DNA from: Thelephora terrestris
Lineage: Eukaryota; Basidiomycota; Agaricomycetes; Thelephorales; Thelephoraceae
Length of the DNA: 64,000 nucleotides
NCBI GenBank assembly: GCA_015956445.1
Contig: WIUZ02000002.1
Location: 1,674,001-1,738,000 of the forward strand
Direction: 5' to 3'
A program made the translations under genes and the position numbers. Positions 10,676 through 40,858 of this stretch are shown here, piece by piece; position 1 is the stretch's first letter; each line of letters opens with the position of its first letter. The notes under the pieces are model-generated. The model saw only the letters and a list, made by a program, of their open reading frames with translations. It was not told where the DNA came from and ran no database searches.

Positions 10676-13242
10676 ATGCTTCCTTCGCCTGAACGAACAG
10701 CGGGCACCGAATGCCAACATGGTGGTATCATTGTGGAAAGCCCAGTCCCAATTCGTGACACGCACCTCTCTATAGACGACCCCCGGGGCGAAAGTGAAGA
10801 AGGTCGCCACTCAACGTCCCACACGGTCCGGCCAAGCCGGGCGGCCACATATCCCCCCATTACCATCAGTCCAGCTCCAAGTGTGCCTATACGCAGCAGG
10901 AAATTTGGCGGTCAACTTAGTGAAAGAACGGACGGTACCCCCGTTGTGGACAGGTTAACAAGGGCAATGTCCATTCCAGTCGGGAGGCCCCCCAGCATTC
11001 GGAGACAGTTGCGGAGCATCTTGCTTGCCTCCCGTACGTTCCAACGTCCCATCTGATTTGGTAGTAGGTTCGGAGTTCTAACACACTACCAGTGATGATC
11101 AATATGCTCTTGTTAGCCATTCCGATCTCTGTAAGTGGTTTCTTGGGTTTCCGGCATCGTGTCAACGCGAACTGATTGATTTATCACACATCCTTGTTTT
11201 CTAGTGGGCATTGCACTTCGCAGTACCCGGTCAATATACGCTAGTATTCCTATGTGAGTGACGTCACGTGATGCGGTACAACACCAGGGTGTTCAGCTCC
11301 GCCCCAGTTTCCTTGATAGCCATTATACCGCTTGCAAAGGTGCGCGTGCGTTCACCTCCATTCCACTCCACTATCCCTGATCGTGTCATCCTCACTCCAC
11401 AGCTCTTGGCATTCGCCACAAAGGAATTGTCAATGCGAGTCGGCGAGACGCTGGCTGGATTGATCAACACCACTCTGGTACGTGCTTCATTTCGCCCAAA
11501 ATCCACTATCCCCCTAGTTTAGTTTCTCACAGAATACCGTGTTTGCTTGCAGGGTAGCGCGTGAGACTTTTTGACAATGTCTACTGCGGTTGTATTTTGA
11601 TCGCTTCCTTAACTCACCGCTTTTGAGACACCCTTTCAGCGTCGAACTAATCGTCGCCGTGCGTGAATCATGCTGTTCTCCCTCCGTCGGTGGCTAAACC
11701 AGTTTTTAGATTATTGCGCTTGTGAAATGCGAGCTCCGTGTAGTTCAATCGTCCCTCGTTGGCTCCATCCTGAGAAATCTCCGTGAGTAATTTTTTCCGA
11801 TGAACTTCACCCATCCGATTCGGAACGTTGCATACTGAAACCACGCCTCCCCCTTAGTGCTGGTAAGTGCCTTGTGTTCGATTCGGTAACCCTGGCTCAC
11901 CTGACCCGATCCGCCCACGCAGGTCCTTGGCTTCTGTTTCTTTGTGGGCGGAACCAAGTTTAGCGAACAAGGCTTTCCGATCCGTGCGTTCATGCCCACT
12001 TTCAATCTATCATGTGGACGCTGACGACTTCCTATTTGCTCTCTCGAATCACTAGGTGCCGCCCATGTCAATTCATCCTTGCTGAACCTCAGCGTCTTCG
12101 GTGTCCTCATCCCAGCTGGGTGAGCTCATCCTTCTCCCACCTCGCGCCTATTCATTGGCGCCCCTCTACACCTTTACTAAATTTTCGCTTTCTTCACGTT
12201 CACGTGGTGGTGTATCATGTCGTGAAATAGGCTTGACGTAGTAGCAGGGAACCGTCAGATCAGTGGGTTTGATGCTGAGACCGAACAACGGAATATCTTG
12301 AAACTGTCTCATGGTTTAGCCGTTGTGCTCCTGATCAGTGAGTTTTGGTTCTCGTTGAAACACCAGCTCCGGACGTTGACATCATTTTTGCGCCAAAGTG
12401 TACCTTTCGTACATTTACTTCCAGCTCTTCTCTCACAAGAACCTGTATCACGACGAAGCTTTACCGAGGCCCGAGACAATTAGATACGCTGCTCCTGATG
12501 GGCCAAGCTGGATAGAGTTGGCGAAGGCAAGGGCAAGGAAAGCTCTTAACATCGCCCCAGGGAGGACAGACACGGAACAGCAGAAACCTGAGGAGACGGA
12601 GGAGGGTGAAGCGGAACCAGAGCTGTCTCTGTCAATGGCCATCGGTCTTCTGGTTGTGGTCACGACTCTCGTCGCAGTCACCACTGAATCGCTTGTCGAT
12701 TCAATCGATGGGTTGGCCAGCAGCGGTAAGATCTCAGAAGAGTTCATCGGTTTGATCTTGCTCCCCTTCGTCCGACTCGTCGGGAATCCCACTGAGCACG
12801 TCACTGCTGTCACGGTTTCCATGAAGGATAAGTTGTCGTTGAGTCTGGGAGTCGCCGTTGGAAGTAGCCTAGTAAGTTCTCTCCTCATTGGATGTGGAAT
12901 CGTTGATTCACTTTTGTCTAGCAAACTGCGCTGTTTGTCATCCCGTTCACCATCATTCTTGGGTGGATCATCGGACGGCCGATCACCATGCTCTTCGACC
13001 CGTTCGAGTCGATCGTACTCTTCCTCGCCGTCTTGACGGTCAACTACGTGGTGCAGAATGGGAAATCAAATTGGTTGAAGGGGATAATCATGATCTGTTT
13101 GTGCGTTGATCCTCCCTTTTACTTTGATTCTTCCATGGGAGTGACGTGTGAGATGTCGTGATGTAGCTATGTTATCGTGGCGCTGTTGTCCTGGTTTTAC
13201 CCGGGGACGAAACCCCCTGGACTGCTAACTTGCTCAGTGTAA
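10676..13242 (+). CDS. Vacuolar Ca2+/H+ exchanger (VCX1/CAX family)
   Basis: Vacuolar-membrane antiporter that drives Ca2+ into the vacuole using the proton gradient. The start is ATG 10676 (MLPSPERTAGTE); an in-frame upstream region lacks another ATG. After a Ser/Pro-rich cytosolic N-terminus, roughly eleven short introns separate the membrane segments: WALHFAVPGQYTLVF, LIAIIPLAKLLAFATKELSM, RVGETLAGLINTTLGSAVEL, VKCELRVVQSSLVGSIL, LGFCFFVGGTKFSEQGF, LKLSHGLAVVLLIMY and FQLFSHKNLYHDE. An acidic loop and the second half follow: TLVAVTTESLVDSIDG, VGNPTEHVTAVTVSMKDK, GVAVGSSLQTALFVIPF, MLFDPFESIVLFLAV, VVQNGKSNWLKG and SWFYPG. The second GNxxEH motif is intact. The first reads GSAVE instead of GNAVE. 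The stop at 13240-13242 lies 3 bp before the target duplication of the large transposon, so the native 3' UTR is displaced. Confidence 0.85.
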
Positions 13243-13245
13243 CCT

Positions 13246-13253
13246 CCGAGTGA
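13246..13253 (+). repeat. Target-site duplication, left copy (8 bp)
   Basis: CCGAGTGA directly before the left terminal repeat; the same 8 bp follow the right terminal repeat at 29092-29099 in the same orientation. Confidence 0.9.
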
Positions 13254-13371
13254 TATCCTGTACGGATCGGTTCAAAAATAATAGGCCCGATTATCGCGAT
13301 AATCGCCCAATTTTCGCCATTTATAGCTCCTTTCTTTACAAGTCCAAACCTTCTCCCTATCCACGCTTTTC
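13254..13371 (+). repeat. Left terminal inverted repeat of the 15.8-kb element
   Basis: 118 bp, matching the reverse complement of 28975-29091 with few mismatches. It contains the perfect 18-bp palindrome CGATTATCGCGATAATCG, which is imperfect in the right copy. Confidence 0.92.
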
Positions 13372-13502
13372 AATGATAGGATATGATACCCCCTTTCCCA
13401 AATACAGGTTTTTTTCGATTATTGCCTCAGATTGTTCAATTATTGGTGTTAAAGGTATTAGACACTAGGATAAAATCATTGATTCATATGCTTCTATGCG
13501 CG

Positions 13503-13589
13503 CAATAATTGCATACAATAATTGCATCCAATAATTGCGCGCAATAATTGCATCCAATAATTGTGTGCAATAATTGCGCGCAATTATTG
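13503..13589. repeat. Left subterminal array of CAATAATTG words
   Basis: Six copies of CAATAATTG start at 13503, 13516, 13529, 13542, 13555 and 13568, and its complement CAATTATTG starts at 13581. Spacing is exactly 13 bp throughout. The 4-bp spacers are mostly CATC or GCGC-like. The regular phase suggests binding sites for an element-encoded protein. Confidence 0.85.
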
Positions 13590-13983
13590 CATAAAAGGTT
13601 TTATGAACCCCATGAGGTCAAGTGATTTTGACATGCATTCAACTCACATCAGGATTGCAACGGTGTCAAGCAATCTCTTGGAGGTCTTATATGAAGATCA
13701 ATGCAAGAAGATGGACATGTACTTTATCCGCCATTGGAGGCACTGGGGGGGGGATAGCTGTGATCATCATTGTATACACGTTCATGATTAGGGAGACGGG
13801 TAGACAGATTCTGTACATAAAGATTAATGCTAGTAGGCGATGCGGAAGAAACAGAGTCTGCTATGTCATTATGGACGGGACAGGAATGATGGACATGAAG
13901 GATGCGTAAAGAGAGCGACACGAGTTAGTCCGAAACGGAGAATGGGGCACCTATGGGAACAGGACAGGGTGGAACGGCGGACA

Positions 13984-15466
13984 TCAAAAGTTCCAAAGCT
14001 CCGATTCCTCGTCGCTCAACCAGGCCGGATTGTCAATCTCATTCTTGAATGAGGCGGAGTGTTGGAGGCGGAGTGCCAACGTATTGACGTCGCGGTGGTT
14101 GTCGTGGGAGGATCCCTCGATGAACTCTGGCGTTTCAGGGACGATCGTATCTTGGGCCTTTAGAGGCATGCCTATAGAAACCCTATTAGTATGCTATCCC
14201 ACTGTGTATGTGAAGGACATAACTTACGGCGGGCACGCTTCTTGGGATGTTCAACGACCTTGACGTCGTTGACCTCAGTGTCCTCATCGATATCAATGGT
14301 GGAGATATCTTTGGGGCTGTCTGAGGAGTCGGAGGAGATGGATACTGAATCTGTGAGGTGCTATGAGACTGCCACCGATAGGCTGGACTATATGCTTACT
14401 GGATCTACGACGCTTTAGGGAGTCGACTGGAATCAGGGGAGCTTGGGATGGAGAGAACCATTCGTCAATGACCTCCTGTGGGATGCGTCTTCTGGTAACT
14501 TTACCGGCCTGTTAGTGCCCTTCAATTGGGTATATGTATGGAACGACTCACCTAGATAGAGGGTCTTGGCCTTGAACCCTACACCCTTTGCCTTTCCACT
14601 GCTCATGGAGTCTACGTATGAGTCGGCGGTTGGGTGGGTGTCGTCAACCAGGGAGTAGTTCTTCCGGTTCTTCTTGAGGAGGATGTAAGGCAATTGGTAG
14701 CTGAGCCTCTTCAGGCCAGTAGAGTCGGACTCGTCAGGGATGTCTTGGAATCCAGTGGTGGTTGCATCGAAGTAGCTGAAGAGGGTGGGGAAGTGGAGGC
14801 GAAGGAAGGCATTCATTTGTTTGGTGCCCCAACTAAGACGGATCGAGAACCCTGGCTTGCTGGCCTCATTGGCTAGGCCAGCATTAATCCAAGGCTCTAA
14901 TGATGTAGAGTTGATTGATGGAAAGGTGAATCGGGTGAGGTTCTAGTGAAATGTCAGATAAAGCATTCACTGATGAATGCAGGTGGTCGGCGTACCTGTT
15001 CACCACATGGGAAGAACACGATCCTACCAAATGCTACTGAATCCTTCACCTTGCTTTGGGTGGCGACCCTACTGGAGACAGCCCTGGACGTAGCCTTCCC
15101 CTTGGTGGATGGGGCATTGGACTGATGGCGTCAGATGTGGGGTTAGCAGGTGGTGGAATAGAGAGATAATGGACTCACCGAAGCCGATGGGGTTGGACGG
15201 AAGCCCTGCAGGGTTTCCTTCCTCGCCTTCTCATGTGTGGCAGAGGCCTTGAGGGACTTAGCTAGACGATCAACATACTTGTTGTGGTCCCGTTGAGTTG
15301 CTGCAACAGCAACATGCTCATGGGATTGGGTGGCAGGGGGATCGGAGTGCGAGGCCAGGCTATGATTGCATTCCTTGCACCTCGACTTCCTTGACTTCCT
15401 GGGAACAAAGGCCACACATTCACAGTCGACGTCTTCATCTGAAGATCCAAGGCAGATCGAAGGCAT
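13984..15466 (-). CDS. Transposon-carried protein of unknown function with Cys/His-rich N-terminus
   Basis: Six exons (15466-15179, 15121-14996, 14942-14552, 14498-14400, 14350-14228, 14171-13984) join in phase into 404 aa. The N-terminus (MPSICLGSSDEDVDCECVAF) continues to RCKECNHSLASHS, a spacing of Cys and His that could bind zinc. A middle part rich in Lys, Ala and Ser follows, then a folded-looking region (NLTRFTFPSI, SIRLSWGTKQMNAFLRLHFP, LPYILLKKNRKNYSLVDD). The tail is acidic, with a likely nuclear signal PKKRARR, and ends SDEESELWNF. I do not recognise the family. The divergent BTB gene starts 237 bp away, so they share a promoter. Complete frames argue against decay. Confidence 0.75.
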
Positions 15467-15703
15467 TGGGAGGGAAACCCTGGGGATGGTGGGAATAGGG
15501 AAGGAAAAGGAGTGTGGGGGTAAATGCTGAGAGGAGGGAAAGAGGAGATGATGAGAGGAGAAGGCGGAATCCTGCTTTATGTGGTCCATGGCAATGGGTA
15601 GACATAGATCACGTGATGGGGCGATCATACAGGATGAGATAAAAGAGAACGTGGGCTGCGCATGCCATCTCTCATCCCCCACCCTTCACACTTCCCATCC
15701 AGA

Positions 15704-16820
15704 ATGACAGATATCACCATGCCACCGACGCCTCCACCGACACAAAACTCACAAGAGCAGTGGGTGATTAGACGGAATGGTCAGGCGATTCAGCATGCGC
15801 ACTTTTACGACACAGGCAAAACACTAAGGGATCCTGTAATCCTGCGGGTGGGTTCCATTTGTCATGTTCACGATCACACCGCGATTTATTGTGCAGGCAG
15901 AGGATACCCTCTACAGACAATCGGCTCACTCCCTTAGCCGAGTGAGCAACTTCTTTGCTTCTGCCTTCTCGATTTCAGGCATCACAAGCCCTGAGGAGGG
16001 GACCTCAGATGATTGCCCCATCTTCCTCCCTTCATCAGTCACATGTGCGGACTTTGAGGTCCTCCTATGGTTCCAGATAGAGTAGGTCTATTTCCCTCAA
16101 TCGCTGAGGTATCACTTACAAATTGGGCATGATGCCAGCTACAATCCGGATCCCTCACAGGACACCCTCTTACGTGCAATATCAATCTCCAGGCGTTGGT
16201 CGGTTCAAAGCCTGTACAATTACGCATTTGACCACTTCAAGCGAAAGTTTGAGAGTGGTAACATTCACCCTGCCATTGTCCTTGGTGTTGCCCGAGAGTA
16301 TGGTATCCCTGCCCTCATCAGCCCGGCAGTCAGGGCCTTGGCCAGCCCTGACATATCACTCTCCAGCTGGTCAGTCAACCTCGACATCATACTCCACATG
16401 TCCGTTGTGGATATTGGTGCCATTGGCCGGATGAAGGAGAGACTCCTTGATACACGCACCGCCCTTTGCACACCACCACCTGACATTCACGATCAGGGGA
16501 CATGCTCAGGCACAAATCGCACTCTGTGTTCTGCATCCTGGAGGAGCTTCTGGGCTTTGGAAGTCGTGCCACAACTTCTGGGGACCAATGGCAAGGATGC
16601 CAGTTGGCTCCAGGAGGTAAGGGATGGTGTCATGAATGTCAAGGTCCTCGGAATGATGGGGAAGTGTATAACCCAAACAGTCACAGGTGCAATCGGAAAG
16701 CCTGCATGGAAGGCTGAAGCAAAGATTACTGATGGGGCGGTGAAACTCCTCATGGTTGAGGAGCGTGGTATGCTGGTGGCAGGGGACATTTCAGACGATG
16801 AAGTGAAGATGGCTGAGTGA
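15704..16820 (+). CDS. Transposon-carried BTB/POZ-domain protein
   Basis: Exons 15704-15847, 15897-16081 and 16139-16820 give 336 aa. The second intron (57 nt) removes an in-frame TAG that would otherwise break the frame at 16083. The order is typical of Agaricomycete BTB proteins: EDTLYRQSAHSLSRVSNFFA (BTB entry strand and helix), SDDCPIFLPSSVTCADFEVL, then LLRAISISRRWSVQSLYNYA and GVAREYGIPALISPAVRALA. The C-terminal part after residue about 200 is less recognisable. BTB proteins are usually adaptors; here the role may be regulation of the element or of a host partner, which is inference only. It is distinct from the two tandem-BTB host genes at 6253 and 34038. Confidence 0.72.
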
Positions 16821-17221
16821 TGTGACACTTTTGGGGTATCTAGTGACAAGGCTTCCAGAGATCTCTGTTGTTCTTCTGCTCTCCACCCTTGAGGTGAACC
16901 TCCTTCGCTCTCGCGCCCCCCCCCCCCCCCTTTGTAGTTTACGTCATGGACTATCTCTTGCCTGGACCCATGCCTATCCCTTTGTGATTCTTCCAGGGTT
17001 TTTTGTGGATCATCTAGGCGGGGCAGTGCAACCCCATTACATATGCCAGTCATCCTGTACACGTCTATATGAGGCCAGCCATCTTGTACACATCATTGTG
17101 ACCATTCACGTATCCTGTGGGGTCAACTTGGGTTATCTTTACTAACCTTTTACTAACAGGATAATGGTTGAACGATGTGACAGTGGTTGAATGACAATAC
17201 ACCAGGCAGTCCATTTACGTA
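16821..17221. other. Convergent spacer inside the 15.8-kb element
   Basis: Spacer between the stops of the BTB and integrase genes. It contains a run of C (about 16916-16931) and repeated A/T-rich words near 17130-17200. No gene is visible. Confidence 0.5.
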
Positions 17222-19335
17222 CTATTCTATGTACTCCCTACATGTTTCAATGCGCATCAAAAGGTCTAGAGCCTTACACCACACTACAATTCGAGGGAAC
17301 CATATGTCATGGGGGAGGGGAATGACTAAGGGCCTCGATGAACGTCCAGTCCTGTATGACTCCGACGATTCATACTCAACATTCAGATTGAATCCTGCTG
17401 GGTAATCCTCTGACAAAAGGGCATCATCTAGGGCATGTGCAAAGACTTCACCTTCACCTGTGTTCATGGGAGGCACCGTGGATGGAGCAACCCCTGCTGC
17501 CTCATGTCGGACATTCCGACCCTGTGCTGCTGCAATCACCTGTGCAATATCCCTCCACGAGCCTGCCGATCCAGGTTCAGACCCATCCATCAGATCCCCA
17601 TTGGTATCTGAGTGAGAGTCATCATCTGAATCGGAGCCGCCATCGCCATCGCTATCTGATCCCACACCGTTGCTGGAGTTGGGCTCTGAGTCAGAGCTGT
17701 GGGATGATGATGTAGAGCTAGAGCCAGAGCTAGAGCCAGAGCTAGAGCCAGAGCCAGTACCATAATAGTGATGTAGTAGATCTGGATCCACGTCATCCAC
17801 TGCATCATAGACGCCATGCATGGTCTGGCCCAACAGCCGGAGATCCTATTGAATGTTGGGCACTAAGCAGGATTGAGACTTTGGCATTTGGTACATACCA
17901 CTGGGCTCATGTTCGCCCCCTTTCCAGATATGGGGTGGTTGTTCCAGTCCTTGATGAACTCCTTGCAGTCATGCTGTATATCCTCGAGGAAGAGGGTATG
18001 AAGGAGCCAGATGTGGTGGGGATTCTGCCTATCAAGGCGATGAAGCCTTTCAAGGCGGGTAAAGAAGGCCCTCCAGCTATGGGCGAAGTGGCGGCCAATC
18101 TCAAGCCACATCCTCTCGATCCGGGTATTATTTGTAGAGCTGTATGCATACGGTTACCATTCAATTTACAAAAATGCTTGTGGGGTGTCACCTACGTTCC
18201 CCACATGAATGAAGCACGATTTGGACCGCGGTACATAATCATCCATGTACACAGGTCAACATTCTCTGACCCCCTGTCTCCCCTAACACGATAGGGACAC
18301 CCAAACTCCTCGATGGCATCGAGGAAGAGCTTGAGAACAGTCTGTGATGTGTTGCGTGTGTCAACACGCATGCCAGTGATCTGGTGAGGGATGGGAGATC
18401 AATGTTATCATTCTTCTGAGGGCATGATGCCAATGTACCATCCTATCATACCCATCAACAAACCCATGAACCACAATGCCCCAGGGCCCGAGCTTATGAT
18501 GCCCATCAACATGCCATAGGGCGTTTGGCCTGCTTGACTCATATTCACGGCGCTTGATGGCCTTTCTCTGGAACATGACCTTTGCAACACTGTCGACTCG
18601 GCTGAGAGAACCAATAATCCGTTCCTGTTGGACACGCATCCCTTGCTGAGATAGGTAGCCACGTATATAACGAATCCCCGTGTTTGGATGGACTGCTTTA
18701 TACTCCTTGATGGCCATGTCAAGTGAGGAGTCCGACATAGTTGAGAATGGCTGTCGCTCTATCCCATATTGACGCATGTATCTCTTGACTGTGCTTATGT
18801 GGATACCAAGTGATGATGCCAGCTTTGGGATGCCAATATTTCGCCCTGGTCTAAAGGCCTCCTTGAGGAATTCCTCTGAGATGACCTTCTTGGGGCGACC
18901 ACGCCCCCCGCATTTCTCAACTGTGACCACCTCAATTTTTGAGACTCTCAAGGCTTCACTATTCTGGGGATGAGCTATGAGCCATGATACAAATGGGGGG
19001 CTGACCTACGCCGATGTTGCCCGATCTTGGGCGGCATGTAGTCCACTAATGAGTAGTGCCATGGAATCTCTGATTGTCCTAATGTAGCTGGATGGGAGAG
19101 GGCTATCTGTCTGGGAGCCAAGGACATCAATTATTGTTGTCATGAACGTCTCTGCCTGTTTGATATGGTGGCCGAGCTGGACAGGGTCGGATTCATCGAG
19201 ATTTACTGCCCGTCGTGAAGCCAAAAATGCTGCACTTAGTCCACGGTGGGCCTCAGTAACATCGGCTGACCATGGAGCAGAGGGGGAGGGAGGGAGGGAG
19301 GGGAGTGCCAACGGGATAATGACTGGAGCGGACAT
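17222..19335 (-). CDS. DDE integrase (retroviral-integrase-like core) of the 15.8-kb element
   Basis: Exons 19335-19010, 18958-18439, 18380-18196, 18139-17899 and 17845-17222 join in phase into 631 aa. Residues about 150-176 (IPKLASSLGIHISTVKRYMR) form a helix-turn-helix. The core begins SSRPNALWHVDGHHKL and carries D260 (WHVDGHH), D317 (RVRGDRGSENV) and E352 (NNTRIERMW), with 34 residues between the second D and the E, so the catalytic triad is complete. VVHGFVDGYDRM lies between the first two. The region after residue 420 has MHGVYD, a Ser/Gly/Asp-rich linker encoded by a short CT-rich repeat (about 17715-17755), and a final folded block (LVIPLPHDIWFPRIVVWC). It presumably cuts and joins the TIRs. 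This integrase type is widespread in eukaryotic transposons and in Agaricomycete genomes. Confidence 0.88.
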
Positions 19336-20856
19336 GGGAAGCGTTAATTTCCCCCAAGCCCCTCAGTGGGGACATGTGAGGTGTATCCCTCAGAGCTGGA
19401 CCCAGTGTCGGAAGCAATCTGAGATTATAATCTAATCACCATCGGTCATGATGGCAATGATTGGTGGGCTCCATGGACCCTTTCTGATTATAAGTAGTAG
19501 AGCCAACAAGCGGCATGGCCCACAGCCTCTAGCAAAGTCTGTAGTATTTGATCGTAATACGGAACTTGTAAAAATGCTTTGTTTTATGACTCTAACAACC
19601 TACCAATCTTACAAATCCTACATTGAGAGATTCCTTTGTAACTTAATCCCTAGCAAATCACATGACATACTGTCCTGCAATGCCACCGTCCCCTCCCGGT
19701 TGGCAGGTTCAAGAGCGTGGGGAGGCTATGAATTGTGGGTTATTTATCAGCAATTTGATGGGACAGTTCAATAGGCAACGGGGATTCAAGCACCAAAGGT
19801 ATGTGACAGAGAGGCTGGGGGTGTTGAACTGTCCTCCCACTCAAAGGGGACATGTTCTGCAGGGGACGTAGGTCCCACTCCAGCAAACCCTCAGTAAGTA
19901 GGGGTGAGGGCTGATAGAGAGCGTGCGATCACCCTGAGTGCTGATTGAAGGATCCGGGAATACTTGGGTGTCATCAAGAGAGGATGGCCTTTCCGTAGAC
20001 AGGCAAGTTAGCGGGAGGGAACAAGTTTCGAGCTTGACTGGGAGGTGGAGGATGGTAGTCGGCGGAGCAGTGGTGGTGGCAATAGTAATTCTGGAGGCGG
20101 CAGTATATCGCAATGCATATCAGGAGAACGAACCGTGAGACCATTCAACCTGAGGGATTGTGTGGATGGATCATAGCAGGAGTGCCGTTCAACATGGGAA
20201 ACTCCCTCAACGTGGGAACCCACTGTGGTGCTGTGTCTTGCCATTGGGAGAAAACCCCTTTCTAAACAGTGTGAGCAGCTAGAGTAGCTAGTGCTAGGGT
20301 GAGTATGGCTTTCATCCTGCCGGTTGGCACAGCTTTTCATCGCCCGCAGACATGTCACATACCTCTTAGACCAAAACTGGCCTGAAGGCAGGTTACCTTG
20401 GAGTCTTCCATCTGTTATGACTCTTCCATCGTCAGGAAATATTGTTGGAACTCTGACACTTTCCTGAACTGAACGGTGATGCAGTTGGTATTCTCATGAA
20501 GCCGGACATTAAGGAGACAGGAGATGGCGCCCGAGACTTGTAGCGAGGATGAGTGTATGTGGGCTGGGCAAGACAGTTGTGGGTGACTGTTGGGTCGAAG
20601 TCATCATCGAAGTCTGGAGGGAGAGTCGATTGAATGGCCTTGCTGGCATCGGTGATATCGGTGACAACGGAAATGTTGTGGGTGATAGCGGAGACAATGA
20701 CACGATCACATTCATCGGAGTAATCTAAACCGCAGACATAGGCTTGGTCAGAGAAATATGTAGTATGGAAAACACAATTGATTGAGGTAGTCCTGGTGGC
20801 ATCAACTTCAACTGTCGTCACCGGGGGTGCTGTTGTTGTAGGGGAGGGGGGGGGGT
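19336..20856. other. Long spacer inside the 15.8-kb element
   Basis: About 1.5 kb between the integrase start and the stop of the next minus-strand gene. It has a GAGG repeat (about 19275-19305) and a run of ten G (about 20846-20855). An open frame at 20432-20821 (minus, 129 codons, no ATG) could be an unassigned exon, since its codons look ordinary, but I could not link it. Otherwise I see nothing. Confidence 0.45.
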
Positions 20857-22307
20857 TTATGAGCCAGAGTCGGAAGTAACCACCCCAACCACCACCTCCT
20901 CCTCGTCATCAACATTGGCGTCCAAATCCTCCTGTTCACCCTCAGCGTCCAAGTCTTCTTGTTCACCCTCGGCATCCAAATCCTCCTGTTCACTCTCATC
21001 CTCATCTCCTTCCACTCGGGGAACCTCCCTCCTTTGTGCTGCAAGCGTGGTCGAACCTTGGCTCCTGGCACTGCTTGACTGAACACCTCTCTGCTGCAGT
21101 GCCGTTTGAAGGATGTGGGGCTATAGAAATGATTGAGAAATGTGGAAAGAGATTGGATTCAGCACGTACCACACGTTTGAGCTCCCTGTCGAAGTATTCT
21201 TCAAGTTGCAGACGAACAATAGCATTCACCTCAACCTCGTTGAATGTAGGAATCCCTGGCTGCCGTGAGGGTCCTGCACGCTTCAGCCCCTCCATGATGA
21301 GGTCGTGTGTCTCCAGTGAATCCATAAAGTCCTCCCTGCTTTTGACGTCCTGCGTCCCCATAGTGACCGCGAGGTGCCATAGGGCCTCCCGGCTATAAAT
21401 GATGTTTCGGCGATAAACCCGGCCGTACTTGGGATCAAGGGGATTGTCCTTAAGGTAAAAGGAGGTGATGTCCACGATGGTTGGTAGATCTGCCCCGGGG
21501 GCAATCGCAGCTTGGATGGATGGACCGTATGCATCCGGGACTCCCTTCAGTTGGCGAACCAGAATTGGGGAAAGGGCCTTCAATGGGGCGGCACGTATTG
21601 GCCCTGCCGCGTTGTCTCTGTCGAGCTCCTGGCCGACCGCCTCAAGGACGTTCCCTGCATACGCCATTCGACGTAGTGATTCGTGGCCATGGTCATGCAA
21701 CCCATGCCTGCGCTCCTGAAGGAGCTGATGTATGATCCGTGCGTCCTGTGGATGAACCTTCCGCCGAATCCAGGAGGACCATTGGTAAGTCTGCTTATTG
21801 GCCACCTTCCGGCGTCGCCGGTAGGAAATCTCGCACGTGTCGCCCTCATTCCACTCAAGGAACTTACTGAGGCTTGGAGTGGGGACATCAAACCCATATC
21901 TCCGTATACCGCTGTATGTGGTTCAGAGTTAGCATAGCCATAGAAAAGGTCAGATCCAGTACTTACATATGGGGTTTCAGCTTGTATTGTTGAAGAGTCC
22001 CATCAGGGTCTCTATCTGTCTCGTCCCGAGTATCCCGGAGGTTGGGAGTGGGGAATGGATCTGGATCCGCCTCATTGTATACTGTTCCCTTCTTGAACAC
22101 CCGGGTCGGGTTGACAGCATCAAAAAGGATGTATGAGGGGAAGGTCTTGTAAATCTTCCAGTGATTTGCCATTGCCGGCGCGCAGCGTTCGGCAACGGGA
22201 CGATCCATGTCTGAGCGGTCGGTTGTATCTTCGTACCTCGGAGGATCGGGGTCAGAATCAGTGCTGACCCTGCGCTTGTGTTGCTTGGAGTTCTTCCTTT
22301 TAGGCAT
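20857..22307 (-). CDS. Transposon-carried protein of unknown function with acidic repeat tail
   Basis: Three exons (22307-21967, 21911-21170, 21120-20857) give 448 aa with all phases matching. The N-terminus is basic (MPKRKNSKQHKRRVS), a likely nuclear or DNA-contact segment. The central region (IRRYGFDVPTPSLSKFLEWN, YRRRRKVANKQTYQWSSWIR, LPTIVDITSFYLKDNPLDPK, RRNIIYSREALWHLAVTMG) looks like a folded domain that I cannot place. The last 60 residues contain three near-identical units of EGEQEDLDA, then DDEEEVVVG. It is on the same strand as the integrase and could act with it, but that is only inference. It looks intact. Confidence 0.75.
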
Positions 22308-23350
22308 TGCTGAACCGGCAAAGAGCTGATTGTTATCTGTAGGGCGAGCGTCGAGCGGGAACAGAGAAAATCGCTGGAGGTTCCGATCGCAGTGATCCGG
22401 CGTTACCGTAACGCGTAACGGACGCGCGGTGTGTAAACAGAACCAAACAACGCGGATGATCAAAACACGATCAAGGATCAATGACCGATCTTGGACGTGA
22501 ACCTCTACCATGCAAACCCGACTCTGGAAATTTCCAGAAAGGGTGGCCAGCCCGGATGTCAGGGATGGCCTGCTGGCAACGTTCCGCCCATATCCTCACT
22601 TCCAACCAGGAGTTCCTGGTTGGATTTGGCCTGCCTGGATGTCCAGGAAGGCTTGAGCGATTTCGGTATGGCAGCCAGCCTGGAGTTCCAGGAAGGCTGC
22701 CAGCCACACCCCCTATTTCAACCAGACGCGTTTAGTGCATCGTTGGGGCAGCCAGCCTGGATGTACAGGATGGTTGCCAGCCACACTTCCCACTTCAATA
22801 AGACGTGTTTAATGCGTCGTCGGCGTCATGTTATTTTCAGGTTATGCTTCACCCTTTCGAGACTTGCTTCGTTGATAGTGATGTATGTTATTGTTGACAT
22901 ATCTTTTGATCCTGTGCTCACATTATTCATTATTCGTACTCGCCCGCATTCCACATTCAATGCATTCCGCTTCCCGCTCAATAGTTAACCTCGCAGTTTG
23001 TCTGCTTCCGCCCACCACTACAGTAATAGATCTAGACCTATGACACTGAAAACACATCCCTTCCTCTTTTTTTTGACTGGCTTTGTGCAACTTGTGCAGA
23101 GCGTGAAAACTTCTTCCAGATTGGGAAGGGATAGTTGTACGGTGTGCGGACGGTCTCCACCGTGGCACATCACTCAATATCATACCCTGATACGTTTTTT
23201 TTGTATTTTAAGAGAGAAACTATATACTCTGAATTGACTCCCAGCTTTTGAGCCCTTAGCAATAGGGGGATAAGCCTACAACAGCATGGGTCTGGCACGC
23301 CCTCAGCCAACGGCCACTGATCAATGATGTTGTCAGGGTTGTGGGCCTGC
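22308..23350. other. Spacer inside the 15.8-kb element
   Basis: About 1 kb. Positions 22540-22824 hold the imperfect repeats listed separately. The rest (22830-23350) is A/T-rich without a convincing gene. Confidence 0.45.
22671..22824. repeat. Two tandem 77-bp units, plus flanking partial copies
   Basis: Units at 22671-22747 and 22748-22824 share GCAGCCAGCCTGGA, a CCAGGA or ACAGGA word, TGCCAGCCACAC, then CAA(C/T)(C/A)AGACG(C/T)GTTTA. Each begins with a self-complementary block (CAGCC...GGCTG) that can fold. Shorter partial copies of the first half occur near 22550 and 22629. Confidence 0.75.
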
Positions 23351-23974
23351 TTACTGTTTGTGGGGCGCTAGAGGATTAGCGGATGGGTGAGGGGTGTCGG
23401 GTCGAGGCTTGAAAGGAGTACCGGGAGTAGAGGTGAGAGGAGGAGGAATATCAAGAGAGAGAGGTGACTCCGTCTGATAGGGGTGCACTGGCGAATGGTA
23501 GTCCTGGCAGAATTGATGTAGCGTTTGTACGAACGGGTCGAAGTCTTGGTCGCTAAGACGTTCGAAGTTGACAAGGTATTCTATGACTGAATAAGGTAAT
23601 TCAGTTGGTACTTCCCACCAAAGAACGATGATAGCAGGGGAATGGGTGTGGATGTTAGTGGTAAGGTGAACGTGTGGATTAGGGAAGTAGAAAGCGGGGC
23701 TTATACTGAAGTAGACGGTCGCTAGGACGCTCTCAGTAAAGTCGGAGTTCCAAAGGAACTGATGATCGGCGCCTAAGAGAAAAGGGGGAGTGGTGACTCC
23801 GGCGTCAAGAGCCGCGAAGGGGCGATAGTAAGGAAAATGAGTAAGTAAACCGGCTGTTCGGTTTACTTGGAGACTTCTGATAAGTTTATACTCCCAGATA
23901 GATCTCCTGGCGTCAGGGATGACGGGGCGTTGGACTGGACTGTTAGAAGGGAAGGGGTTTGGGGCACTGAACAT
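23351..23974 (-). CDS. Transposon-carried protein of unknown function (207 aa)
   Basis: A single open frame from ATG 23974 (MFSAPNPFPSNSPVQRP) to the stop at 23351, without introns. It has an aromatic- and proline-rich composition: WEYKLIRSLQVNRTAG, LLGADHQFLWNSDFTESVL, YFPNPHVHLTTNIHTHSP. The tail after residue 170 is Pro/Thr-rich. I do not recognise it. It is divergent from the gene at 24578 across a 603-bp region with a TATA box for each. The intronless structure differs from its neighbours, so this pair might be a nested insertion. Confidence 0.55.
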   Translation of the reverse strand: MFSAPNPFPSNSPVQRPVIPDARRSIWEYKLIRSLQVNRTAGLLTHFPYYRPFAALDAGVTTPPFLLGADHQFLWNSDFTESVLATVYFSISPAFYFPNPHVHLTTNIHTHSPAIIVLWWEVPTELPYSVIEYLVNFERLSDQDFDPFVQTLHQFCQDYHSPVHPYQTESPLSLDIPPPLTSTPGTPFKPRPDTPHPSANPLAPHKQ

Positions 23975-24577
23975 ACACTGGCAGGAGGATTCCTGCTAGA
24001 ATGAGTCAGAAGTAGTAAGACGGAGGAGAATTCCTCAGCTTACTTGTTTATTCAAGTTTGTGGGTAGAGGAGTACAGAAGAGATTGAGAATGGGGAAAAG
24101 AAAGGAGCGAACGCTCTTCCTTATATACCCAGTCCTCTACAGGAGTCATTACTCTACAACGAACCAAACAGGGATCAACACGGTCTGTGCGTAGTTTAGG
24201 GTAGGGTAGATGAGTCAGGGAAGTGGGACCTTAGAACGACGAATGACGAAATGAAATAGGGGAACAATAGCGCATGAGTCATTCTAGAAGCTTGATGGGG
24301 ATTTCTCTTGTTTCAGGGTAGCAATAGAAGACTGACGGGGATTTCTCATGATTGACGGGGATTTCTCTGGATTTGATGGGATCGTGATTGGGGTTAAGGG
24401 TTCGTTTATCCTAATTAGGACTTAAATGGATGATGATTCATTGTCTTCCCCTTTTGGTTTCCTATTGAGTCAGTTGTATATAATCCAGGGGGATTATTGG
24501 TCCTTTCCTCTCATCGTCTCTTTTCCTTTCCCACAATCACCACTACTACTCTCTCCTCTCAAACATCTTTGTTTACT
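23975..24577. promoter_or_regulatory. Bidirectional promoter of the divergent pair
   Basis: Contains TATATAA read on the minus strand at 24121-24127 (147 bp before ATG 23974), TATATAAT on the plus strand at 24477-24484 (about 94 bp before ATG 24578), and three copies of TGA(C/T)GGGGATTTCTC at 24294, 24333 and 24353. Confidence 0.6.
24294..24368 (+). repeat. Three copies of a TGACGGGGATTTCTC motif
   Basis: Copies begin at 24294 (TGATGGGGATTTCTC), 24333 and 24353, all in the same orientation between the two divergent genes. Possible regulator-binding sites. Confidence 0.6.
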
Positions 24578-25487
24578 ATGTCTGCCTTCGTTGCCAACAA
24601 CGCCGTGCTCAACGCTGCCGCCACCCCCTTTGACTTTACCCCGTCCTTCGAGACGGATGCTCCCTACAACGTGGAGCAACACTTGTACGACTCCCCCGCC
24701 AACATCGCCCATGACAATCAGGTAGCGGTGGACTTCTTGACCGCCCACAATGCTCCTGCCGACTTCTGGGAACAAGCTGGTTTCGAGGATCCCAGGGCTT
24801 CTAGGCCTCAACCGGAAGCTAGGCATCCTGGAGCCGCTCTTCTATTGGATAGGATGGAGAGGGAGAGGGAAGATAGGATTGCGAAGTTGGAGAAGCGAGT
24901 GGATCTCATGTACGTCATCATGAACAGTTTGAACGAGGATTTCTCTCACTTTGCTTTGGAACATTGGGGACCTTTCCAGGCGGCTCTCTTCAGACATTTC
25001 GGACACCAATGTCACGGAGCCTATTGCACCGATCCCCCTTCTAAGTCCCCAGTCGTCCCTTCGCCACCGCCAGGATCAGGGCGTTCCTCTCCCTCCGTCC
25101 CCTCCCTGGAGTCCTGCCCCAGTTCGTCAGATGGTGGAGAGGTCCCAGAGGAAGAAGACCCGCAAGAATCCAATGACTCGTTCTGGTCAACGTTGTCGTC
25201 CCTCCGACAAGTCACGGCAAGTACGGATGAAGTTGAAGGTGGAAGTGGCGGGTCTCCAAGACCGGTATGGGTTCGCATTAGTGAGCGGGGCCTTGTCGGA
25301 CGTGAAGCGAGAGATGTATGAGAGCTTGTCTCATGACGTGTTAGGGTGCAGGGAGTGTTGGCAGGACCCGGTAACTCGGGTGTATTCTTACTGTCCTCAG
25401 AGCATTCATAACCCTCATCACTTCGCTCATCGTTGCGCGTATCCTCAGGCCTGTTCTTGTGACGTAGATCCTTTTGTTCTTGTTTAG
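24578..25487 (+). CDS. Transposon-carried protein of unknown function with coiled coil and Cys-rich tail
   Basis: Exons 24578-25220 and 25282-25487 give 282 aa. The start MSAFVANNAVLNAAATPFDF follows a C/T-rich leader and TATA box. Residues about 90-125 (LLLDRMEREREDRIAKLEKR) form a coiled coil, continuing VDLMYVIMNSLNEDFSHFAL. A Ser/Pro/Glu-rich linker follows. The second exon encodes VKREMYESLSHDVLGCRECW and a Cys/His-rich end (YSYCPQSIHNPHHFAHRC, then CSCD) that could bind metal. I do not recognise the family. The coiled coil plus Cys/His tail is loosely like a structural or nucleic-acid-binding protein. Confidence 0.6.
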
Positions 25488-26265
25488 TTTTGTAATATCT
25501 AGTGGTTGTCTTTGTACTTTTATTACCTCGAATAAGACCAATGTCTTGAATTATCTGCGTGATCTTAGATAATATGTCACGTGTTCGTGACAGATGTCAT
25601 GGGTGGCTCGAGCGCTCTGAGACTCGAGACAGGCCGCGCGTTCACGAAAACAATTGCAAACCTTCCCGTCAGCCTGCGACCACGTTGACTCTCCTCCTCT
25701 TCAACTTCCACTTCATCACGGTCCTGCAAACCTGCAAGCACAATTCATGAGACGAAATCAATAGGTCCCTTCAACCTTTTTGGTGCTAACAGGACCCAGA
25801 TCCCACCCATCCTTTCCATTCCCGGGCTCCTGCCCCTGATGCCTGTTCAAACGTTTGGTATGGACACGGGAAGCAACCCTAACCTCTCGTGTCAGACGTA
25901 TCCAGGGCTGGGTTTATGCCCTCGTTATCGTGTCTTTATGTGCACTTCTATTTCGCCTTCTGTTTACTTTGGAGTACTCTAAATGTTACCTAGCTACGTC
26001 GATGATCTTCCTTAAGTCGAGTCCGATCTTTGACAATCTCCAAAAACAGGGTGAAGCCCTTGCTACTTCTGCCGCTTTTGCGTCTTCAATGATCTTCAAA
26101 GACCCAACGGTTTTGCTGATGAATGTAATGTCTGTATATACCGTATATACCATAAATGGAATTAAAATCGATATCCCACAATAACTGTTCAGTTCATCAG
26201 CCACATGGTGCGCTGTGATCACGGATCGCTCGTACTGCAACCCCCCACATCAACTCACCGCAGCC
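25488..26265. other. Spacer inside the 15.8-kb element, upstream of the caspase-like gene
   Basis: Contains the short hairpin TGTCACG-TGTT-CGTGACA at about 25575-25592 and a repeated ATATACCGTATATACC word near 26135-26150. No convincing gene. Confidence 0.45.
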
Positions 26266-28661
26266 ATGTCATCTCAAATGGGACCATCCCAGGCGACACA
26301 AAGCTCCTCCTATCCAGGGACCCTGGACGAGGAATACGAAGGCTACTTCTCCAATGTTTACGATGCTGCCCAGCCTCTCATTCTCGGCCAGGGATACGAA
26401 TCTGTATCCCAGGATCGGCTGCGAAAAATCATGAACAAGGACTGGATAAAGCAGTGTACGTCTATCCCGGACTGTACACAACCGCTCCCCACAATATGGG
26501 CTCATCCTCTCATAAGTCAAGCGGCGCGGTATCAGTCAGACCAAGACCTTATCAAAAAAGGCCAAAGAGCGTATCACGAAGGACTTGGCTGCAGGGAGAT
26601 ATGCAGACAGGGAGAATGCAAATGAGTCGGCGCTCATGGCGCCATCTTCAGATCCTCGGGACTATTCACATGTGAGTTTAGTGTTCAGCCCCTCATCTCT
26701 GCAGCGACTTACCAAGGGCAGTGGTGTACGCTCTGCATGGACTTTGCATTGCAGCTGATCCTGTGTGCTGGGTGTCGGGTTGGCGTCTGTTACCCATCCA
26801 TCGGCTCGACAAAAGGGTGTGTGGCATGGGATGAAAGGATCGAACAGGACGACTTTGTCTTCTTCTGCCCATTCTGTGCAAGGTCCGCCAAGGTTACGTG
26901 CCCAGTATGACCTGTTGCTTTCACTTCCCATCCCCATCACTAATCTATTCCAGCTCACATTGGCAGAGCCAGAGAGGGTTCCAAAGAAGGACTTGACCCT
27001 ATTCCGTTGCGACCCTCCTGCCCTCGTAATCTCGATTGTGTGGCACACAACGAGACACCCATTCATAAATATGTTTCGAAGCCACCTCCAAGGCAGATAT
27101 TCCGGCAATGAGAAGTCGGTATGTATTCCTCATGTGCATTGAAGAGGGTGGAGGTGATGACGTCCTAATAGGTGAAGTTCATGGACTGCAGCCTGCAGCA
27201 TACATCGGGGGAAAACGATGAACGTCTCACGGGGTCACAGGCGGCAGCAGACGCCATTGAATTCTTGGAGGCCAATCCCTATGCAAAGATTGTAGTGATT
27301 ATCGACACCCATGCCGCCGAAAACGGATATTTTGTTTGGGCCAAAGACGCGAATGGGGACTACCAGGCGTGCTCACTCCTGGAGGTGGGTGTTGCCTGTT
27401 GGCTAATGTGCCTTCCTGCTCACACTGCCTTCACAGATCCTTCAAGACTGTACTCCCAAGGAGATCTTCAATTACATGTCCGATGCAGAGGATGCCCCGT
27501 CCCACCACCACAAGATGCTAATTGTGAATCTTGCCTGCGGAGCTTCGGTCTCTCTGCCCCAGCCACGGAGTGAACTGCTTACTGGGTATGTGCCATGCAT
27601 CAGACTCTCCCGGTCACACACACGCTTACCAGCTCACACACATCAGCCACTGCGCCGATGCAGTGCTGTCATTTGCAACAAACACGACAATCACCAGTGA
27701 GGTAGCGTCCGTTCTGCTTCCCCTGATCTCAGATTGGGTGCAGACCTCCTCCGACTACGATGTTCTGATAGCAAAGTCCGTTCAAGCCGGATGGGCACAC
27801 AGGAACCACCCTGTGCTATCCAGGCGTGGTCATGACCCTTCCCGTTACACCAAATTCACGTCCACTGAAGAGCCACATGTCGACATGGCATCGGGCAAGG
27901 ATGATCACATCCTTTATACCCGGTTCGACCTCGGCCAGCCTGGCGGAAGAATAGTCAGGTGTTTCCGTGGATGTGAAAAGGGGATTGGTGCCAAACCGGG
28001 GAAGAATACTGTGCGCATCAAATGCGAGGGATGTAAGTACAGGACTACCATTCCAGCATTCAGGTCGTCGACAGAAACGACACTGGGAAGGTTTTCACTG
28101 GTTGCGGTGGCGTACCCACAGGAGCTCTATCCTACCCCTCACTGGAATCCCACCAACACAGAAAATGATCAGGCGGGTCCCTCGATGCTGACGCCAGCCC
28201 CTCCCCCTGCAACGCCAACCCCTCCTCCAGAAAGGTCAACCTGCACCTCTCAAGAGCTGGCACCCCCTCCTTCTCCTCCTCTCCAGTCAACACTGCGCCC
28301 ACCACGTCTGGATCCAATGGTGCGATCGATATCTCTCCCCTCGATGACAAGCACAGGATCCACCACACCCATGCAACGTAGGCTCCCCACAATCCGGATC
28401 CCCCCACGGCCTTTGCGCCAAGGCTCCCCAACAATTCGGATCCCCTCACAGCCATTGGGCCAAGGCTCCTTGACGGCTGTGGAGTCCAGGAGGGCAGGCA
28501 CTCGGAGCGCCACCGCCACCCCACCCAAACCCCAAAAGCGACCACAGAGCAAGTCGCCCGAGCCTGAGACCGAGCCTTGGATGAGCGACCTGGTTAGCAG
28601 GATGTGGCAAAAGAGGCGAAGGCGTGGGGATGACCATCCCCCCACACCACCAATGTCTTAG
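26266..28661 (+). CDS. Transposon-carried caspase/CHAT-like (clan CD) protein with Cys-rich segment
   Basis: Seven exons (26266-26455, 26517-26671, 26722-26892, 26954-27118, 27172-27384, 27437-27585, 27647-28661) give 685 aa. Residues 116-170 hold CxxC pairs (WCTLCMDFALQLILCAGCRV, then FFCPFCA), a zinc-finger-like block. A caspase-like fold follows: LVISIVWHTTRHPFIN, then KIVVIIDTHAAENGYFVWAK with candidate catalytic His 274, and KMLIVNLACGASVSLP with candidate Cys 332. A strand, then DTH, then a later hydrophobic strand ending AC-G, is the clan CD arrangement. The chain continues CADAVLSFATNTT, then a second CxxC region (VRCFRGCEKG, IKCEGCKYR) and a long Pro/Arg-rich disordered tail ending near RMWQKRRRRGDD. 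Activity is not proven: the His loop has AAENG where G is commoner. Confidence 0.72.
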
Positions 28662-28727
28662 ATATATTTTGTATCACGTAGCACAGACTCAATGTAGGTT
28701 TAATTAACAGAATGAAAATACCAAACA

Positions 28728-28858
28728 CAATGATTGGATGCAACTATTGTACAATTATTGGATGCAATTATTGTACAATTATTGGATGCAATTATCGGAC
28801 AATTATTGGATGCAATTATCGGACAATTATTGGACGCAATTATCAGATACAATCATTG
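28728..28858. repeat. Right subterminal array of CAATTATTG words
   Basis: Eleven copies of CAATTATTG or one- to two-base variants start at 28728, 28741, 28752, 28765, 28776, 28789, 28800, 28813, 28824, 28837 and 28850. Spacing alternates 13 and 11 bp, then ends 13, 13. The word is the complement of the left array, so the two arrays are mirror images. Confidence 0.85.
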
Positions 28859-28974
28859 AGGTGTACAACGAAACCAAGACCCCATTTAAAGGCTGAACAC
28901 ATGAATAGGCTACCCAAAGACAATAATCGTAAGTACATAATACTTACAACGAAAGGGGTGTATTATTTATGACA

Positions 28975-29091
28975 GAAAAGTGTGGATAAGAAGAAGGTTT
29001 GGACTTGTAGCAAAGGAGCTATAAACGGCGAAAATAGGGCAATAATCGCGATAATCGGGCCTATTATTTTTGAACCGATCCGTACAGGATA
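28975..29091 (-). repeat. Right terminal inverted repeat of the 15.8-kb element
   Basis: 117 bp, inverted match of 13254-13371. The outer 47 bp are identical. It ends CGTACAGGATA at 29091. Confidence 0.92.
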
Positions 29092-29099
29092 CCGAGTGA
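29092..29099 (+). repeat. Target-site duplication, right copy (8 bp)
   Basis: CCGAGTGA, identical to 13246-13253. Confidence 0.9.
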
Positions 29100-38983: not shown

Positions 38984-40858
38984 ATGTTGCGCATGCTTGC
39001 GCACCCACAAACCACTAGACAATTCGCACGTTCGTTTCACAATCCCTCCATCTATCGACTAGGACGCCAGTCGTTGCCAAGCCATCTCTATCGCCCTGCA
39101 GTGTTCAATGTGACGCGATTGTCGGAGCAAGGGAGCTATCTCAATGCCGTCGGTCCCCGCCATGCGATTTGTGGCGGCCAGGTCGCAGGATTCCACGCTA
39201 CCAGGAGGAATGAGGCTTTGCCTTTTGTGCCGGTGTTTGCAGTCATGCTCAAGGTGCGTTTATCGCGTTCCGGAGCTCTTGTAGACATTGATTTGGTGAT
39301 AATAGGCATCCGGTTCCCTCGAACTTGCTCGAACCGCGAGCAGGGTAGCGCTTTCGCTCGCTCCTATCCTCTTCATAAAGAACCGGAGATTGAAAAAATG
39401 GCTCCAGAAAGACTTACCAGGAATGGAAGAGAAGCGGCCGGTGATTTTGAAGAAGATTAGAACGAGGACAATTCTTTTCCACATCCTGATCATGACCCCC
39501 ATCGTCCTTTTTTGGGCGACAATCATTGCAAGTTTGGAGCGGACACCACTGACTGGGCGGTGCGTTGCTTGCTGTTCTAATCACAGTCACACGAATGGCT
39601 GAAGTGAATAAACGCCTTTTGTAGGTGGAGACTCATCCTGTTATCACCCGAAGAAGAGGATCAAATAGCTGCGCAATTGGCTGGCGAGGGTTGGTACCAG
39701 GCTGTCGGCGAGATCCTAGCAAGCCAAGCAGAGGATGAGAAAGTTCCTACTCCAATCCCAGCCACAGACTGGCGGTACCAGTGGGTACAAAGCACGCTCC
39801 GGCGCCTAGAATCCGTCGTCCCTGTCCTCCAAGATGAAAAGAAGCTTAGCCCTTCGTGGCTGGAGACTAGCCCTGACGATGTTCAACTTCCACCTCCTGC
39901 AGATTACCCTTTGCGACCGAGACCTCGCGCCTCCGAGTACCTCAAGATGTTCTCTGATATGACCTGTGGAAAACGGTCGAAACACACTCCCGACCACGCC
40001 CCTCATACCATCACTGGACCCCCTTATTCTCTCCTTCTCGTCGATAACCCAAATTCCTCCAACGCCTTTTCATACGGTTTTGGTCCTGATGGCGGAGGCG
40101 GAATCGTCGTTTATAATGCGTTCATAGATGAAATCATGAATGACCCGGAACTCGCCCCGAGCACAACGTTACAAGAGTCAGAAGAATCATCCTGGTGGTC
40201 ATACATCTTCGGCTCTATCCTCAACGCCAACCACCAGCCTCAACATCCCGTACCTTCCCCCGAACAAACTAACCGACTCGCAGTTCTCCTCGCCCACGAA
40301 CTCTCACATCTCATTCTCTCGCACCACCTCGAATCGTTGACCTCCAGCTCAATTGTTTTACCAGGGCTCCTCTCTATCCTTACTGACCTCGTCCGAACGT
40401 TAATGTTCCCGGTGACCATGTTTTTCGGGCCCTTCGTAAACGATGCCGTAGCAAATATGGGCAAGATCGGGTCTGGCGAGGTCACAAAGCTCTCGGTTCT
40501 CTGCACCACCAGGATACAAGAACTCGAAGCGGATGTGGTGTCGACGAGGCTCCTCGCCTACGCGGGCTTTGATCCCCACTCCACCGTCAAGTTCTGGGAG
40601 AGCAGGACCCCTACGGTTTATGGGGACCTCTCTGAATGTGCGACGTGGAAGGAGGACTCGAGCAGTGCTCGTGATGCAGAAGGCGACAGGCTACCTTATA
40701 AGACCGCGCTCTCGTTGTTTGGCTCCACTCATCCTATGAATGATACGCGGGTCGGGGCTCTGACGAAGGAGCTCCTCAGGTGGTCCGCGGAGAAGGAGGA
40801 GGCTCTCGTTCGGTTGCAAGCGGAGAAGCAGCCAGAGAAACAAAAAAGAAGCGGTTGA
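38984..40858 (+). CDS. OMA1: OMA1-like mitochondrial inner-membrane metallopeptidase (M48)
   Basis: Zinc peptidase of mitochondrial quality control. Exons 38984-39253, 39306-39559 and 39625-40858 give 585 aa. The N-terminus is rich in Arg, His and Ser without acidic residues (MLRMLAHPQTTRQFARSFHN), as expected for a mitochondrial presequence. A transmembrane helix (LFHILIMTPIVLFWATIIA) is followed by the family block LERTPLTGRWRLILLSPEEE. The zinc site is LLAHELSHLILSHH (HExxH), with the third ligand in TRIQELEADVVSTRLLAYAG. The C-terminal STHPMNDTRV is also conserved in the family. Longer than yeast Oma1 (345 aa), partly through an insert of about 45 residues before HELSH. It appears functional. 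Confidence 0.9.

Follow-up and report, generated by a model that had tools for sequence, protein, structure and literature searches.

A large gene-carrying DDE transposon, probably of the IS3EU/GingerRoot kind, in Thelephora terrestris

Transposons of the IS3EU group are marked by TA..TA ends, target duplications that are usually 6 bp long and a transposase related to IS3 and IS481, according to the available sections of PMC10045372 and PMC12730594. Styx of Zymoseptoria, as presented in the available text of PMC10853768, is an IS3EU-related element of 7.9 kb with four ORFs and is proposed to have gained extra genes; within the literature examined, it appears to be the closest described precedent for the element analyzed here. 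In this study, we investigated an insertion in the genome of the mycorrhizal mushroom Thelephora terrestris (Agaricomycetes), in a 64,000-nucleotide stretch of DNA that is referred to as a whole as the window. Its sequence features point to an autonomous-looking DDE DNA transposon, very probably of the IS3EU/GingerRoot kind, that would have grown to ~14 kb by gaining genes. The element appears to have been mobile recently, and its extra genes are kept by selection; the reason for their presence in a DNA transposon can thus be put to the test.

Ends, target duplications and copies

The first-pass annotation had read the locus as one transposition unit, and this reading was borne out: the terminal inverted repeats (TIRs) were found at the coordinates in Table 1, with identical outer 47 bp and an exact 8-bp target duplication. 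The outer 80-bp arms are 95% complementary, and a 31-bp core of the TIR (up to 3 mismatches) occurs at 2 sites in the window, compared with a mean of 0 over 100 shuffles. The unit in the window measures 15.8 kb, but without inserts it comes to ~14.0 kb, as in the copies on C58 and C23, because 23331-25592 is a separate nested repeat. Inside the TIRs, repeats of the CAATAATTG/CAATTATTG type (one mismatch allowed) cluster at both ends in all five copies counted. The window copy has 9 of them in its first 700 bp and 12 in its last 450 bp, versus 4 in its 14.7-kb interior, and 200 letter shuffles of the first 700 bp gave a mean of 0.23 and a maximum of 2. These subterminal repeats are putative transposase-binding sites.

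Table 1. Features of the unit, in window positions, and two-ended insertions in the genome, by contig
Feature	Position	Strand	Description
Target duplication, left	13246..13253		CCGAGTGA
Left TIR	13254..13371	+	starts with TATCCTGTACGG
Subterminal repeats, left	13484..13613		CAATAATTG type
Gene G1	13984..15466	-	6 exons, 404 aa; no Pfam family; hand-spliced
346-aa protein (BTB protein of the first-pass annotation)	15704..16820	+	3 exons; one 27-nt intron uncertain
Transposase	17222..19335	-	5 exons, 631 aa; rva_4/rve integrase core with D-D-E
Gene D	20857..22307	-	3 exons, 448 aa; no Pfam family at cut-off
Nested 2,262-bp repeat	23331..25592		TGTCAGG..GTGACA ends, 5-bp duplication GATGT; not element proper
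Gene E (caspase of the first-pass annotation)	26266..28661	+	7 exons, 696 aa; zinc-finger-like Cys pairs, conserved His/Cys; 29-nt intron uncertain
Subterminal repeats, right	28727..28869		24-bp units containing CAATTATTG
Right TIR	28975..29091	-	
Target duplication, right	29092..29099		CCGAGTGA
Window insertion	C12		15.8 kb; duplication CCGAGTGA
C3 insertion	C3		20.9 kb; duplication GATCAT
C58 insertion	C58		14.0 kb; duplication GTCAGCAT
C5 insertion	C5		15.0 kb; duplication GGCTAC
C23 insertion	C23		14.0 kb; duplication GTGATA
C24/C18 insertion	C24/C18		duplication TTATAC; halves paired across contig ends via common flank
C19/C34 insertion	C19/C34		duplication CTCGAC; halves paired across contig ends via common flank

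The T. terrestris genome (40.6 Mb, 60 contigs) was searched for further copies, with only the best candidates scored, so that all counts are lower bounds. The TIR search returned 16 matches, which resolve into the ends of 7 two-ended insertions (2 of them paired across contig ends), a single end on C51 and one end of an older, interrupted copy. The last is the copy in which the C5 insertion is nested; the sequence GGCTAC occurs once in the window copy, as the uninterrupted counterpart of the C5 target. Every two-ended insertion is flanked by a target duplication, of 6 bp in five cases and of 8 bp in two. The termini TATCC..GGATA are present at all 16 matches save for decay in the older copy, and TATCCTGTAC or its complement at 15 of them, the sixteenth being altered internally and retaining the ATA end. 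Inserts apart, the copies are collinear in gene order. Thus, additional copies of the kind that the first-pass annotation had proposed to look for do exist, sharing ends and genes and differing in their duplications.

An empty site, the other check it had proposed, was recovered for one insertion. The joined flanks of the C58 element match C39:1828-2624 over the whole 800-base query at 99% identity, and the collinearity of the two contigs continues further out; most simply, the C39 site would be an allele without the C58 element. For the window insertion, a genome search with its flanks found no element-free allele. Elsewhere on C12, a sequence related to its left flank (2 kb) at 85% stops at about the insertion point. 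Near-identical stretches were also seen between C39 and C58, between C11 and C60 and between C1 and C23, which suggest that the assembly retains parts of two haplotypes or that there were recent duplications. The element lies ~220 bp downstream of an ORF (12380-13036) with a sodium/calcium exchanger domain (Na_Ca_ex, E 3e-11). Elsewhere in the window, we take the long ORFs 56780-58912 and 39608-40858, judged by eye, to resemble an NB-ARC/TPR protein and an M48-type peptidase, respectively.

The copies differ in inserts and in damage. The nested repeat of the window copy contains the ORF 24437-25321, which matched no Pfam family; its TG..CA ends give it an LTR-like appearance, and a query covering 23331-26228 had at least 60 genome matches including itself (best 40 of 399 candidates scored). 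The window copy also has an extra ~580 bp before 26229 that is absent from all six other copies covering the region (C58, C23, C3, C5, C18, and C19), and near 13603 and 20186 it is missing ~550-680 bp and ~230 bp, respectively, which are present in the other copies covering those places. Two inserts of ~3.3 kb with TGTCAGG..CCTGACA ends and 5-bp duplications lie in C3, one of ~2.4 kb interrupts the 346-aa gene of C24, and gene D is interrupted by 0.5 kb in C3 and by 1.4 kb in C5. Net indels not divisible by three affect the transposase of C58, C3, and C5, gene E of C58 and C5, and gene D of C24. Stop codons were found in C5 in the genes for the 346-aa protein (1), the transposase (2), D (3), and E (3), and in C3 in D (1).

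Gene content, selection and relatives

Splicing gave an open frame in the window for each of five genes, namely G1, the 346-aa protein, the transposase, D, and E. The first-pass annotation had counted at least seven; the region 23331-25592 belongs to the separate nested repeat. A small hexamer gene finder, short of training data, produced poor models and was dropped in favor of splicing by hand, aided by the copies and, for E, also by the database model P0001, which agrees partly with our model of E and omits the zinc-finger-like exon. The E sequence used in the database and Pfam searches differs from the final model at two exon joins. Across the five genes and the six pairs of four copies (window, C58, C3, and C5), dN/dS ranged from 0.15 to 0.52, below 1 in all 30 comparisons; these values cover 4 of the 8 sequences handled, C24 being without E and C18 and C19 comprising only the right part, and they come from frames projected onto the window frame with insertions ignored, in which absence of a stop does not equal an intact gene. 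The five genes have therefore been under purifying selection.

The history of the genes differs along the element. Synonymous divergence between the window and C58 copies is 0.04 for G1, 0.03 for the 346-aa gene, 0.02 for the transposase, and 0.06 for E, and it is 0.37 for D. Between C58 and C3, the corresponding values are 0.07, 0.11, 0.14, and 0.17, and D stands at 0.02. This gene-wise divergence does not fit one tree of copies and probably results from recombination or conversion among them.

The transposase matches the Pfam families rva_4 (1e-54) and rve (7.6e-10), and its first 453 residues match the NCBI models for IS481 (7e-15) and IS3 (9.7e-11) at scores below the strict NCBI cut-offs. 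The full D-D-E triad that had been reported for it is present, within the motifs WHVDGHH, RGDRGSEN, and RIERMW as assigned from sequence. An upstream HHCC zinc motif was looked for by eye only, and none was seen; a PDB sequence search gave only a nonsignificant match to HTLV-2 integrase (E 0.6). Related proteins number 134, of which 120 were listed, and the named ones among those listed span many mushroom genomes; similar unannotated elements may therefore be common. In the T. terrestris genome, the first large transposase exon has 17 matches, made up of six copies of the element, two relatives at 45-46% identity, and nine at 30-32%, and rva_4 itself gives 45 exon-level matches. Another multicopy group of rva_4 transposase genes, at 30-32% identity, comprises L048, L049, and loci on C59, C12, C58, C20, and C4; it is perhaps a young family, since several scores are equal, and its C1 copy diverges from the C34 copy inside the transposase.

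The 46% relative on C8 belongs to a 5.3-kb element with TAT..ATA ends and a 6-bp duplication, GGGAAA. Around it lies an outer element (C8:586668-593122; L050/L051) with 343-bp arms that are 99.7% identical and a duplication, CGAAAC. The 5.3-kb element carries the transposase and, on the opposite strand, an adjoining relative of the 346-aa protein at 21-22% identity, the two genes being divergent on C8 and convergent in the window. A search of the same element for G1, D, and E found none of them.

The genes other than the transposase differ in how closely they are tied to the element. All 28 matches of G1 in the genome fall in six element copies, as do 13 of the 15 matches of the 346-aa protein, with the other two at related loci on C8 and C23. 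The first-pass annotation had called the 346-aa protein a BTB protein; no Pfam family up to E 10 and no relevant PDB sequence match supports the label, and, at the level of sequence, a very divergent BTB fold could still be present. D and E (searched with the first 399 residues of D and, in place of the window protein, with P0004, a relative of E) were found as a pair, no more than 3 kb apart, at six loci besides the element copies, on C11, C60, C6, C1, C23, and C59; on C59, D gave a short match. Of these, the C11 and C60 loci, and likewise those on C1 and C23, look like duplicates or alleles of each other. The two genes are divergent, as in the window, at three of the six loci (C11, C60, and C6), and two (C11 and C60) have an rva_4 gene no more than 20 kb away. 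None of the six gave a match in the genome-wide search for TIRs of the element, and the parts of the C60 locus that were examined showed no TIRs.

Database relatives of E (11 matches) and D (12) come, where the organism is named, only from Thelephora, the others being unnamed or metagenome proteins. In T. ganbajun, a relative of E (P0009) and one of the transposase (P0074) each come from a contig of 18,765 bases, seemingly the same one. Among 12 members of the D family, 2 overlap with the Rsa3 model, at best with an E value of 0.0015, and the match was not trusted. The caspase label given earlier to E gained no support from sequence searches: there was no Pfam caspase or CHAT match up to E 10 in any of nine members, no PDB sequence match, and no NCBIfam match for two relatives. 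The E family does conserve a His (7 of 7 members covering it) and a Cys (9 of 9), both preceded by a hydrophobic stretch, which is suggestive, as a hint only, of a peptidase. By analogy with the TET/JBP genes, which are thought to do so in other fungal transposons, D and E might form a mobile two-gene module, with E as a divergent zinc-finger cysteine peptidase, that is passed between transposon families in Thelephorales and aids elements against host silencing; we consider this full scenario speculative and rather unlikely.

Classification, alternatives and a possible mechanism

The TAT..ATA ends, the mostly 6-bp duplications, and the IS3/IS481-like DDE transposase mean that no new class is needed to accommodate the element. 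The TA..TA termini characteristic of IS3EU/GingerRoot elements are present, and so is the usual 6-bp duplication, at five of seven insertions and at both C8 relatives. The suggestion in the first-pass annotation of an undescribed class of cargo-carrying transposon therefore gave way, since ends, duplications, and transposase agree with the IS3EU marks in the available text of PMC10045372 and PMC12730594. Counting against our explanation are the 8-bp duplications at two of seven insertions, the damage in several copies, the failure to find an element-free allele for the window insertion, the presence of D and E elsewhere without the TIRs of the element, and the differing orientation of the transposase and the 346-aa relative on C8.

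A separate class, with a likeness to IS3EU that comes only through a common rve-fold transposase, seems improbable to us. The size, the gene content, and the two 8-bp duplications do differ from those of IS3EU elements in the published text available, and among the five gene models Pfam detected neither an alpha-kinase nor a TET/JBP gene, but such a class would have to share TA..TA ends, predominantly 6-bp duplications, and an IS3/IS481-related transposase with IS3EU, the smaller related elements in the genome likewise have 6-bp duplications, and Styx offers an IS3EU-related element that gained genes (PMC10853768). Even less credible is that the unit consists of host genes caught between two transposon ends as a composite or hitch-hiking segment. 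A transposase lies inside, and further copies have the same gene order between the same ends, although the joint occurrence of D and E at six other loci would suit a host origin. It also touches in part what the first-pass annotation had named as grounds for rejection, the enclosed genes occurring together elsewhere without the TIRs; G1 was found in the six copies only, and the search for the 346-aa protein added just two related loci to these.

A KDZ/Zisupton or hAT element, for which the two 8-bp duplications would speak (Zisupton makes 8-bp duplications, according to the available text of PMC12730594), is hardly conceivable given five 6-bp duplications and a transposase in which the Pfam scan detected rva_4 and rve and neither KDZ nor hAT. 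We give equally little credence to a Maverick/Polinton or integrated virus, since the integrase-like gene and the several genes between long TIRs come without any polymerase, ATPase, protease, or capsid family (Pfam, five gene models), and searches of viral contigs with D and with one transposase exon yielded no relative. An LTR element was also considered and rejected, and no tyrosine recombinase of the Starship type was found by Pfam in the five gene models; nothing found points to either of these or to a Maverick, as the first-pass annotation had concluded.

For an IS3EU/GingerRoot transposon, a plausible mechanism would begin with the N-terminal part of the transposase binding the TIRs and the subterminal repeats. 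The transposase would then insert the TAT..ATA ends into the target at positions staggered by 6 or 8 bp, and repair by the host would give rise to the target duplication. The donor might be either excised, as in cut and paste, or copied out; bacterial IS3 copies out. The transposase and the 346-aa protein may be partners of long standing, because a distant relative of the latter adjoins the transposase in the smaller C8 element. G1, D, and E would be cargo, of which D and E resemble a module of two genes that is also present elsewhere and may help the element, for example against host silencing, although this is a guess.

Comparison with known systems

Our literature search, which reached few subscription journals and not Repbase, found no description of the Thelephora element; it may be catalogued in Repbase. 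Starships are large gene-carrying fungal elements with a tyrosine recombinase and are not known to have such TIRs; the Thelephora element is like them in size and in carrying genes and unlike them in its DDE transposase and TIRs. The IS481EU elements also have an IS481-like transposase and more than one duplication length per family, but their duplications are of ~4, 15, or 25 bp and they are known from parabasalids, as far as the available text of PMC10045372 goes. The TET-bearing IS3EU elements of rust fungi are closer, with 6-bp duplications, TIRs of >30 bp, TA..TA ends, and genes beside the transposase. Their ends read TAYGG..CCRTA, as opposed to TATCC..GGATA in the Thelephora element, and they carry TET/JBP and alpha-kinase genes, as the available sections of PMC12730594 have it; neither was found in the five Thelephora gene models.

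Styx shares with the Thelephora element an IS3EU-related DDE transposase, TIRs, extra genes, and mobility, was annotated with a 6-bp duplication setting, and has two genes that are lineage-restricted. It is an ascomycete element with 36-bp TIRs and ORFs for a transposase, GATA- and CCHC-motif proteins, and DUF3577 (PMC10853768, in the text available), whereas the Thelephora element has ~14 kb, five genes, 118-bp TIRs, and 6- and 8-bp duplications. Collectively, what sets the Thelephora element apart is its size, its gene content, the two duplication lengths in one family, the exchange of gene blocks, and the recurrent D-E pair; set beside the descriptions available to us, it fits the IS3EU kind and widens that kind's range of sizes and gene contents.
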